Source: Acinetobacter sp. C32I
GTDB taxonomy: Bacteria > Pseudomonadota > Gammaproteobacteria > Pseudomonadales > Moraxellaceae
Assembly: GCF_023702715.1 (NCBI RefSeq)
Contig: NZ_CP098480.1
Span: 1 to 64,000, forward strand
Length of the DNA: 64,000 bases
Direction: 5' to 3'
Numbering within the stretch: the first letter of the stretch is position 1; every line of letters starts with the position of its first letter. Made by a program: the position numbers and the translations under genes. The notes under the pieces are model-generated. The model was not told the DNA's origin and ran no database searches. It saw nothing but the letters and a program-made list of their open reading frames with translations. This document shows positions 5,899-62,876 of this stretch, piece after piece.

Positions 5899-6339
5899 AT
5901 GGATATAATTTTTAAAATTAAAAATAAGTTAATAAAACAAGATATTAAGCTAAACAAACCAGCAACATGGCAACAGATTTTAGCTTTTGAATATAAGTAT
6001 CAAGTTAAATTGTCACCAATTTTAAGAGCTTATTTTTTAGAATTTAATGGTATCGCCGACCGAGAAATGGATGAAAAATATTTCACATTTTTGTCGCTAA
6101 CGGAATTCCAATCAGTTGAAAGCATTTCAAGCTTCTATGATAAAGATAAGTATTTATATCCTAACAGTTTTGTATTTTCGGACTATTTAGTGTGGTGTTG
6201 GGGATATGCGGTACAACTCGATCAGTTTGGTTTGGATAGTGGCGTATACCAAGTGGGAGGATCCGAAAAAATAAAAATTGCAGATACATTCACAGCATTT
6301 TTAAATCAATATTTGATTGATAGTGATGAATTATTATAA
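5899..6339 (+). CDS. SMI1/KNR4 (SUKH) family protein, orphan immunity-type gene
   Basis: 146 residues, ATG start with AGGAT upstream. It shows the SUKH pattern: an N-terminal helix, PATWQQILAFEYKYQ in place of the usual self-association helix, LSPILRAYFLEFNG (the classic L-P-x-x-Y/F-x-x-x-x-N-G element), then alternating strands and a final helix. In bacteria SUKH proteins are mostly immunity proteins against polymorphic toxins, especially nucleases and deaminases. No toxin, Rhs, CdiA or type VI gene is next to it: the neighbours are the DUF6091-like gene and the 6S RNA array. Base composition is AT-rich, consistent with acquired material. The family is fairly sure; the immunity role here is inference. 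Confidence 0.78.
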   Translation: MDIIFKIKNKLIKQDIKLNKPATWQQILAFEYKYQVKLSPILRAYFLEFNGIADREMDEKYFTFLSLTEFQSVESISSFYDKDKYLYPNSFVFSDYLVWCWGYAVQLDQFGLDSGVYQVGGSEKIKIADTFTAFLNQYLIDSDELL

Positions 6340-6440
6340 AAAATATTTAATGGAGATTGTTAAAAGGTTCATTCGAGATAAATGGTTTATAAAAGGATGA
6401 GTATAAGTTAAATTATTATTTTAATTATATTTGAAAAAAG

Positions 6441-6620
6441 ATACTCCAGAGATGCCGCTGCATGGTCGTTACCCTGAACCCGATGAGTTCAAGGTGGAGG
6501 TGACGCATACTTACTGGGTTTCCTACTCGAGGTAGGCATACACTCAAAATACACAGAACACATCCATAAATTTAAGTATCGGCAGGGGAATAGACGTACT
6601 GGCGAACACCCTAGAGATGT
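6441..6620 (-). ncRNA. ssrS: 6S RNA, third copy of tandem array (distal to zapA)
   Basis: On the minus strand this stretch reads as a 6S RNA. It has a closing stem pairing CTCTAGGGTG at the 5' end with ATCTCTGGAG at the 3' end, the conserved CCCCTGCCGAT element on the 5' side of the central bubble, an apical hairpin CCTACCTCGAGTAGG, the 3'-side hairpin CCTTGAACTCATCGGGTTCA, and the signature GCAGCGGCATCTC near the 3' end, nearly as in E. coli 6S. Length is about 180 nt. 6S RNA binds the housekeeping sigma-70 holoenzyme by mimicking an open promoter and is released by making a short product RNA. A T-run follows the 3' end. The ends are estimated from the -10 position and the closing stem. Confidence 0.9.
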
Positions 6621-6625
6621 TTCCT

Positions 6626-6653
6626 ATTATAGTTAAATCAACAACGACCACAA
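6626..6653 (-). promoter_or_regulatory. Sigma-70 promoter of 6S copy at 6441-6620
   Basis: Minus strand: TTGTGG (6653-6648), 16-bp spacer, perfect TATAAT (6631-6626), then about 7 bp to the predicted RNA start. The same arrangement precedes the other two copies. Confidence 0.75.
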
Positions 6654-6758
6654 GAGGAAAGTATTGAGATTTGTATGTTTTACTAACAATTAGCAATTTA
6701 AGTTTAATAAGACTATAAAATCTAAAATGGGATCAATCGTTATTTGAAATAAAATGGG

Positions 6759-6942
6759 TCTCCAAAATGCCGCTGCATGTCTTTACCCTTGAACACTAAG
6801 GTTCAAGGTGGAGAGCGCTATATATTATCTGGGTTTCCTACTCAGGGTAGGCATACACGCTAAATATTTATAAACGCTTTCCAATTAGGAAATAATTCAC
6901 GGCTCAGGGGAGTCAGATCGGCTGGCGTACACTTCAGAGATG
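6759..6942 (-). ncRNA. ssrS: 6S RNA, middle copy of tandem array
   Basis: The most E. coli-like of the three copies. The minus strand has CATCTCTGAAGTG at the 5' end pairing with the 3' end CATTTTGGAGA, the element CTGACTCCCCTGAGCCG on the 5' side of the bubble, the apical hairpin CCTACCCTGAGTAGG, the long hairpin CCTTGAACCTTAGTGTTCAA, and the signature ATGCAGCGGCAT. The closing stem pairs over about 12 positions including G-U pairs. Length is about 184 nt. Role as for the other copies: reversible inhibitor of sigma-70 RNA polymerase, usually abundant in stationary phase. Ends are estimated. Confidence 0.92.
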
Positions 6943-6947
6943 ATTTA

Positions 6948-6975
6948 ATTATAGTAAAAAAGGAGGTCATCTCAA
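6948..6975 (-). promoter_or_regulatory. Sigma-70 promoter of middle 6S copy
   Basis: Minus strand: TTGAGA (6975-6970), 16-bp spacer, perfect TATAAT (6953-6948). Best -35 match of the three. Confidence 0.78.
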
Positions 6976-7085
6976 GGGGAGAAAATAGAGAAATTTGTAA
7001 GTTTAAGTTTACAGTTGAAATATTAAATAGAAGTCATTGAATTGAAAAATATAATAAACAAATTGGACTTTATTAAAGCAAATAA

Positions 7086-7270
7086 TCTCCAGAAGTATCG
7101 CTGTATGCCTTTACTTTTGAACACTAAGGTCCAAGATGGAAAGTGCAGATAGTGTCTGAGTTTCCTACTCTAGGTAGGCATACATGCTAAATATTCAGAA
7201 ACGCTTTTCGATTAAGAAGAATATCAAGATTCAGGGGAATCAGACTGGCTGACGAATACTCCAGAGATGG
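7086..7270 (-). ncRNA. ssrS: 6S RNA, first copy of tandem array (proximal to zapA), most diverged
   Basis: The minus strand has CATCTCTGGAGTATTCG at the 5' end, closed by CGATACTTCTGGAGA at the 3' end; the element CTGATTCCCCTGAATCTTGA; the apical hairpin CCTACCTAGAGTAGG; and a weaker 3'-side hairpin (CTTGGACCTTAGTGTTCAA). The otherwise conserved GCAGCGGCAT reads ACAGCGATAC here, but the 5' strand has changed with it (GTG to GTA), so a G-C pair becomes A-U and pairing is kept. That covariation argues for a functional RNA rather than a decayed copy. Position just after zapA matches the single ssrS gene of E. coli and Pseudomonas. Ends are estimated. Confidence 0.85.
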
Positions 7271-7275
7271 ATTGA

Positions 7276-7303
7276 ATTATAGTGAATTCAGATCATGCAG
7301 CAA
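7276..7303 (-). promoter_or_regulatory. Sigma-70 promoter of zapA-proximal 6S copy
   Basis: Minus strand: TTGCTG (7303-7298), 16-bp spacer, perfect TATAAT (7281-7276). Confidence 0.72.
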
Positions 7304-7544: not shown

Positions 7545-7578
7545 AAAAAAGCCTGAAATTTGTATTTCAGGCTTTTTT
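7545..7578 (-). terminator. Intrinsic terminator after zapA
   Basis: Stem GCCTGAAAT / ATTTCAGGC with a 4-nt loop, flanked by A and T runs so it can work in both directions. It lies just past the zapA stop and separates zapA from the 6S array. The 240 bp between it and the first 6S promoter (7304-7544) holds nothing I can identify. Confidence 0.88.
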
Positions 7579-7581
7579 GAT

Positions 7582-7866
7582 TCAGATGCTTTGTTCAACA
7601 TCTTCCAGTATGGCTTCTAAAAGCCGTTCGCAATGGGCGTACTGCTGTAAAGACTTATTTAGGCTAAACACTTCTTGAGCCATTTGCAGCGCCACCATAA
7701 TCACCAGTTTATTATGCTCAACCCGTGGAGCATTACGACGCATGTCATGAAACTTTTGATTTAACAACTCTGCCGCGCGTTCAAGCTCTTCACGTTTATC
7801 TTCAGTCGTATTTAAACGGAAGGTCTGTTCAATTAAGCGAAGCTCAACAACAATAGGTTCACTCAT
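7582..7866 (-). CDS. zapA: Cell division protein ZapA
   Basis: 94 residues. An N-terminal globular half (VELRLIEQTFRLNTTEDKRE, the ZapA dimer-interface region) is followed by a long C-terminal helix ending LLEAILEDVEQSI. ZapA binds FtsZ and promotes bundling of protofilaments at the Z ring. The start has AGAGGAAAC about 9 bp upstream, and the upstream coiled-coil gene stops 2 bp before it, so the two are co-transcribed. Synteny with 6S RNA downstream and ygfB/pepP upstream matches Pseudomonas. Slightly shorter than the E. coli protein (109 aa). Confidence 0.93.
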   Translation of the reverse strand: MSEPIVVELRLIEQTFRLNTTEDKREELERAAELLNQKFHDMRRNAPRVEHNKLVIMVALQMAQEVFSLNKSLQQYAHCERLLEAILEDVEQSI

Positions 7867-62152: not shown

Positions 62153-62228
62153 TGGCTCTCCCACCTGGGCTCGAACCAGGGACCTGCGGATTAACAGTCC
62201 GTCGCTCTACCGACTGAGCTATGGGAGA
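62153..62228 (-). tRNA. tRNA-Asn (GTT)
   Basis: 76 nt, acceptor stem TCTCCCA / TGGGAGA, anticodon loop CTGTTAA with anticodon GTT, T arm GGTTCGAGCC, encoded CCA. Identical in sequence to the copy at 62801. Confidence 0.98.
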
Positions 62229-62800: not shown

Positions 62801-62876
62801 TGGCTCTCCCACCTGGGCTCGAACCAGGGACCTGCGGATTAACAGTCCGTCGCTCTACCGACTGAGCTATGGGAGA
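62801..62876 (-). tRNA. tRNA-Asn (GTT), second copy
   Basis: 76 nt, identical to the copy at 62153-62228, anticodon GTT, encoded CCA. Flanked by a few identical bases on each side, typical of recent duplication or gene conversion. Confidence 0.98.

Follow-up and report, generated by a model that had tools for sequence, protein, structure and literature searches.

The 6S RNA restrains RNA polymerase, an enzyme that few RNAs act on directly as regulators; 6S RNAs are characterised by abundance in stationary phase, binding to sigma-70 RNA polymerase and templating of pRNA. Open-promoter mimicry and release through pRNA synthesis are known for the 6S RNAs of Escherichia coli and Bacillus subtilis, and 6S function depends largely on shape. 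To our knowledge, the reason why some bacteria retain more than one 6S RNA is unsettled. The figures of Wehner 2014, as quoted in PMC7726162, give 1,750 6S genes in 1,611 genomes, with four in Magnetococcus sp. MC-1, which resembles the locus reported here in having more than two 6S genes. B. subtilis and Legionella pneumophila likewise possess two diverged 6S RNAs per cell, but their genes are listed as distal loci in PMC4211561 and do not form an array. In the B. cereus group, ssrSA and ssrSB stand head to tail at one locus and represent two kinds of 6S RNA, as in the present case; there, however, two genes are co-transcribed from one promoter as one precursor (PMC7726162, for ssrSA/ssrSB of B. 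thuringiensis), whereas here three genes are each preceded by a promoter-like sequence. For Acinetobacter, PMC5320573 describes one annotated ssrS in A. baumannii AB5075; in rRNA-depleted samples it was one of the top five genes by transcript level. A literature search of limited depth gave no description of tandem 6S genes in Acinetobacter, and Wehner 2014 may list them. Multi-copy and tandem 6S genes are already known in Bacillus, and the Acinetobacter array of three genes in two classes would be a further variant of these.

The window analysed here is the whole 64,000-nucleotide stretch of Acinetobacter sp. C32I, which was searched against 4227 Rfam families. Three matches to the 6S family RF00013 were found head to tail on the minus strand at one locus, downstream of zapA (7582..7866, minus strand; Pfam ZapA, PF05164). 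Copy A, nearest to zapA, occupies 7082..7270 (56.9 bits, E-value 1.2e-8), copy B 6755..6943 (110 bits, 2.7e-21) and copy C 6439..6620 (101.4 bits, 2.9e-19). All three matches run over model positions 1-187 of 187 and exceed the cut-off of 46.4 bits. Hence the covariance model recognised all three copies and not one alone, and the three tandem 6S genes downstream of zapA that the initial annotation had proposed are real by this measure. The 5' ends of neighbouring copies lie 327 and 323 nt apart, with gaps of 138 and 134 nt between copies of 182-189 nt, so the proposed head-to-tail arrangement holds as well; the copies are not equivalent, though, their pairwise identities being 76.8% (A/B), 67.7% (A/C) and 70.3% (B/C). 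When all 45 candidates in the whole genome (4.19 Mb, two contigs) were scored, exactly three 6S matches were obtained, those of the window. Since the array recurs in eight genomes, the window's and seven others, an assembly artefact is argued against.

The neighbourhood is that of the E. coli gene, to which the copies are also alike in length, in the full-length model match, in the CCCCUG central strand and in the closing stem. E. coli has one gene where three stand here, and the E. coli ssrS used for comparison was obtained by position, as blastn with copy C of the window gave no match to it. The genes also differ in what follows: the E. coli order is zapA-ssrS-fau, whereas the first ORF past copy C (5899-6339) lies on the opposite, plus strand and encodes a SUKH-1 (SMI1/KNR4) protein (Pfam, 35.7 bits), a family with a frequent role in toxin immunity. 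Elsewhere in the window, two tRNA matches of identical sequence are located about 650 nt apart on the minus strand (62156-62228 and 62804-62876).

Copy number was then scanned in the genus, the family and the class, using stricter filters and a ceiling of 13, 7 and 9 scored candidates for each genome respectively, so that weak extra copies could escape. Among 175 Acinetobacter genomes, three matches were found in seven, two in one, one in 165 and none in two. Thus an expansion shared by the genus as a whole is not borne out, more than one copy being present in 8 of the 175 genomes. The family scan (322 genomes) gave more than one match only in the same eight genomes, one match in 312 and none in two. 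Array carriers include A. proteolyticus NIPH 809, A. colistiniresistens NIPH 2036, A. higginsii CIP 70.18, genomosp. 15BJ CIP 110321 and Acinetobacter sp. Ac_5812, together with A. gyllenbergii CIP 110306 as the two-copy carrier. The window genome is closest to A. proteolyticus among the 26 genomes compared, and with 97.0% identity in rpoB and 94.0% in gyrB it probably represents a separate species. In an evenly drawn sample of 276 genomes of the class, 14 besides the window's had at least two matches, three of them with two above the cut-off. Other tandem arrays were sought in this sample and rejected: the multiple matches all lay on separate contigs or at least 147 kb apart, with the proviso that several of the 14 genomes are drafts in which nearness across contig ends is possible. 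In three genomes of one family, dispersed 6S-like matches number five (G360), three (G487) and two (G578); most are below the cut-off, and they may possibly reflect another 6S expansion in the Gammaproteobacteria; two of the five G360 matches were among the class-scan rows compared and were also on other contigs.

The local analysis covered the window and 98 further loci with a zapA match, that is, 99 of the 175 genus genomes (91 single-copy and 8 array loci). Two loci were left out: L049, a 10-base dummy, and L050 (G112:C1:408600-417800), whose 6S match scores 108.7 bits. The 9.2-kb surroundings of the latter gave no match to five neighbouring proteins of the window, including those of zapA and pepP, and contain two CRISPR repeat matches about 0.8 kb from the 6S match. 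A relocation of ssrS or of its neighbours may be recorded there.

All 17 single-copy sister genomes examined have one 6S gene beginning 88-120 nt after zapA, and A and B are positioned between zapA and C. By blastn, copy C is 97-99% identical to the single gene in 13 of the 17 sisters and 86-96% identical in the remaining four. This near-identity indicates that copy C is the orthologue of the sisters' gene, ssrS proper, and that A and B are the extra copies. In the phylogenetic tree, the A copies form one clade across species (support 97/88), the B copies do likewise (94/91), and the two clades are sisters. Their common branch has a length of 0.26 (0.41 in a genus-only quick tree) and arises inside the Acinetobacter 6S RNAs, 20 rows of other genera falling outside. 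Such nesting on a long branch indicates that A and B originated within Acinetobacter, from one of its own 6S genes, and then evolved rapidly. A source in another genus was considered and found no support in the tree with the 20 other-genus rows, where long branches were flagged.

Conservation of the array was assessed between A. colistiniresistens and A. higginsii, where the 6S bodies are 96.8% (A), 97.9% (B) and 96.7% (C) identical while the spacers reach 74.9, 84.0 and 84.6%. A consensus fold (RNAalifold, 22 rows) comprises 38 pairs, six of which changed on both sides, the structure being derived from the same rows. The closing stem and the apical helix are maintained by pairing across species, for instance by a compensatory change from G-C to A-U in five A rows (columns 14/178) and by a pair that is C-G in 11 of 22 rows and A-U in the other 11 (columns 85/127). 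Body conservation and compensatory stem changes together point to selection on all three genes in A. colistiniresistens and A. higginsii. It should be pointed out that well-conserved A copies come from five carriers, and that A. higginsii, 15BJ and Ac_5812, whose A and B bodies are 99.5-100% identical, amount to little more than one observation.

Copy A of the window is in a different state. It scores far below its orthologues in five other carriers (101.6, 101.2, 101.2, 98.9 and 92.7 bits), by 36-45 bits; A. proteolyticus gives 67.6 bits, and in A. gyllenbergii no copy A match was obtained, the flanks that do match by blastn enclosing a non-matching stretch of about 130 nt. Between the window and A. 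proteolyticus the A body is 84.2% identical against 88.5, 91.7 and 96.2% in its flanks, although the spacer between B and C, at 85.3%, is nearly as diverged, which counts against relaxation. Copy B remains intact, with 95.2-96.8% identity among the window, A. proteolyticus and A. gyllenbergii and 37-38 of 38 consensus pairs kept. The window copies retain 34 (A), 37 (B) and 37 (C) of the 38 pairs; in copy A four pairs are broken, whereas the closing stem has all 12 of its outer pairs intact. Judged from these comparisons, copy A looks relaxed in the window genome and A. proteolyticus and lost in A. gyllenbergii, so that B and C are likely the working pair of the window genome and copy A is probably being lost from it; with 34 of 38 pairs and the outer stem intact, it may nevertheless not be dead. 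The earlier suggestion of three doses of 6S RNA therefore keeps its three RF00013 genes and is weakened for the window genome, where copy A evolves at about or above the spacer rate and scores 36-45 bits less than five orthologues. Single-sequence folds gave z-scores of -1.52 (A), -3.05 (B) and -1.68 (C) for the window and -2.60 for copy A of A. higginsii, and the minimum folds of the window's A and C are not clean rods, which we count against the interpretation favoured below.

Promoter-like sequences were found upstream of each copy on the minus strand. The putative promoter of A (7276..7303) combines TTGCTG (7303-7298), a 16-nt spacer and TATAAT (7281-7276); that of B (6948..6975) consists of TTGAGA, 16 nt and TATAAT, and that of C (6626..6653) of TTGTGG, 16 nt and TATAAT. 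The last occupies the place of a different, TATACT-type upstream sequence in the sister species. With a search that selects the best match to the consensus at each locus, TATAAT was present in 7/7 A, 8/8 B and 8/8 C copies. It ends 4-5 nt short of the copy start, and a -35 box containing TTG precedes it at a distance of 16-17 nt, whereas the 91 single-copy loci have TATACT in 78 cases and TATAAT in 13. A generic promoter scan of the window gave no excess over shuffled sequences (4 vs 6.1) and, of the array promoters, listed only that of B (11/12 consensus matches). The case for promoters thus rests on cross-species conservation. The promoter 60-mers as a whole are often no better kept than the spacers, the window and A. 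colistiniresistens sharing 70.0% identity in the promoter region of A and 78.7% in that of B, compared with 68.9-84.0% in spacers. The best reading of these sequences is that each copy would be separately promoted from a sigma-70-type promoter. A terminator-like inverted repeat of 15/15 nt with A/T runs follows zapA (7545..7578), and a matching motif occurs in 8/8 array loci and in 0/91 of the single-copy loci examined. The terminator scan listed nothing at 7545..7578, where the T run sits inside the stem, and found no terminator-like site between the 6S copies.

The copies fall into two classes at the presumed start of pRNA synthesis. E. coli 6S RNA has CCGAU here, the last base being U44 (A43-U44), and U44 is the pRNA start, a U44A mutation causing a release defect (PMC8876501). 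The presumed template strand of copy C (6567..6606, minus strand) reads CCGAUA, as in E. coli, and that of copy B (6889..6928, minus) CCGUGA; in copy A (7216..7255, minus) the position aligned with U44 is G. Motif scoring gave a GUGA start region in 6 of 7 A and all 8 B copies, the window's A having U-G there by alignment, and GAUA in all 8 C copies and 84 of the 91 single genes (one AAUA, six not parsed). A and B thus carry CCGUG in place of the CCGAU of E. coli and most Acinetobacter, with G at the U44-equivalent position and U one before it, while C keeps the U44 equivalent. A different pRNA is predicted from each of the three copies. We infer that A and B may start or release pRNA differently from C. 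The three variants suggested earlier do differ from one another, yet they are better described as two classes, A/B and C.

Array species fall into two groups on linked proteins as well as on rpoB and gyrB, and a single clade of array species was rejected on the latter (AU p 0.0002), these being two recombining genes and not a firm species tree. The A and B copies, in contrast, are orthologous between the two array groups. At the end of zapA, over its final 51 alignment columns, similarity is 84.8% between the array groups and 69.4% between the second group and four single-copy sisters, whereas over alignment columns 601-675 the order is reversed, with 84.8% between the array groups against 89.3% between the second group and the sisters. 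By eye, single-type sequence resumes at copy C. Because the similarity reverses along the alignment, the array behaves as a recombination block that extends from the 3' end of zapA, part of the array haplotype, to copy C. These patterns fit one origin followed by exchange or repeated replacement, and the divergence of the spacers implies that the spread is not recent. Taken together, the comparisons make it probable that the tandem 6S genes belong to two classes, have a promoter each and go back to one origin, with recombination having spread or sorted them among some species of a single Acinetobacter clade.

Mobile elements also meet this locus, and they offer another possible source of the extra copies. 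ssrS is an attachment site. It is reported as a prophage hotspot of A. baumannii (PMC11998280), and integrase-like genes follow directly past the ssrS 3' end in L034, L038, L048 and L118, which include array and single-copy genomes (Pfam integrase confirmed in L048 and L118; L034 and L038 judged by similar N-termini). The same observation takes in L135:4001-4062 and L136:5332-6705, and phage Ab1656-2 has a matching site, in which 62 bp beside a recombinase correspond to the 3' end of 6S. A phage or integrative element that used ssrS in this way could have brought A and B, but the elements are found past the 3' end of C, while A and B are on the 5' side, complete in length and with promoter-like sequences of their own; integration at an attachment site usually duplicates no more than the 3' end of the target. 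An exact search of viral contigs with one 6S pattern gave no matches. Three records of the phage collection matched, two contigs of the same name (H8 and H9) and one 62-bp match (H10), and the contig H8 carries ubiH, pepP and lon and hence is bacterial chromosome, mislabelled as phage. Seven records of the plasmid collection matched, four over a longer stretch (0.66-4.1 Mb records) and three over 62-66 bp (including H7); H1 shows a chromosomal neighbourhood around its 6S match. A phage or plasmid source of A and B was rejected on these searches, and delivery by an element appears very improbable. The mislabelled bacterial contig (L134, CAKLQF020000025.1) bears the name Acinetobacter phage MD-2021a and, besides ubiH, pepP and lon, holds a gene for a Z-ring protein and a 6S match. 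The plasmid records H2-H4 (3.66-4.09 Mb) are chromosome-sized but listed as A. baumannii plasmids.

Decay deserves consideration for copy A, given its low scores in the window and A. proteolyticus, its absence from A. gyllenbergii, a body less alike than its flanks and four broken pairs. That the duplicated copies as such are decaying and no longer useful in the window's lineage is nonetheless quite unlikely, as this description applies to A alone: B is 95.2-96.8% identical among three species, and A itself scores 92.7-101.6 bits in five other genomes. A precursor transcribed from one upstream promoter and processed to the 6S RNAs, as in the B. cereus group, would suit the tandem, same-strand copies 134-138 nt apart with no terminator-like site found between them, and it has its precedent in the B. 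thuringiensis pair (PMC7726162). We regard it as unlikely, though, in view of the TATAAT and TTG-type -35 box before 23/23 copies, which are kept while the spacers are 75-85% alike. Another alternative is one of pure dosage, in which extra copies merely raise the amount of 6S RNA and the sequence of A/B departs from that of C without consequence. The consensus -10 box of each copy, the conservation of all three bodies between A. colistiniresistens and A. higginsii and the dependence of 6S function largely on shape all agree with it, and the divergence of A/B from C may indeed be neutral drift after duplication and not new function. However, amplification for dosage only would be expected to keep copies alike, while A and B differ from C at about 30% of positions, acquired on one long branch and conserved again afterwards, and the class-specific change at the pRNA start is common to 14 of 15 A/B copies by motif scoring. 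Dosage as the whole explanation is accordingly possible but doubtful.

Under the favoured reading of a two-class, separately promoted array, copy C would be the ancestral ssrS, and A and B would descend from a single duplication of an Acinetobacter 6S gene that diverged quickly to a second class and was then conserved. Each RNA, once transcribed, is predicted to adopt a rod shape whose central bubble imitates an open promoter and to bind sigma-70 RNA polymerase; synthesis of a short pRNA on the bubble by the polymerase would then release it. As A and B differ from C at the pRNA start nucleotide, release of the two classes may differ, in rate or in starting nucleotide, and three genes with consensus -10 boxes would give a higher total of 6S RNA.

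A related pattern was seen among the single genes. The single-copy 6S bodies (91 loci within L041-L133), compared together with the window copies, show two linked structural types, CCCCTGAGCC with GTTCAAGGG and CCCCTGCC with CATCGGGTTCAGGG, in 48 and 37 of the 91, six being unassigned. The 5' and 3' strands of the central bubble are linked without exception among the 85 assigned loci (48 type 2, 37 type 1, none mixed), and parsimony on a quick linked-protein tree places about nine type switches. For example, G158 (L080) and A. haemolyticus (L120, L127) differ in type and share almost the same promoter. We tentatively suggest, as a conjecture that may well fail, that two Acinetobacter 6S types replace one another and that the array fixes both, C being of type 1 and A/B derived from type 2 with a shifted pRNA start. 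If true, two 6S systems that differ in the chemistry of release would operate side by side in array species, with copy number and promoters setting their balance, and the array would be a natural permanent heterozygote for a global regulator of RNA polymerase.

As a caution, a single ssrS annotation or probe could overlook two of the three genes in such species. Related Acinetobacter species differ naturally in 6S copy number, with one, two or three genes and a third copy that appears intact, decaying or lost. The array species thus offer a ready comparative system for dosage versus division of labour of extra 6S RNAs. The array represents a lineage-restricted expansion of a global regulator into two 6S classes.
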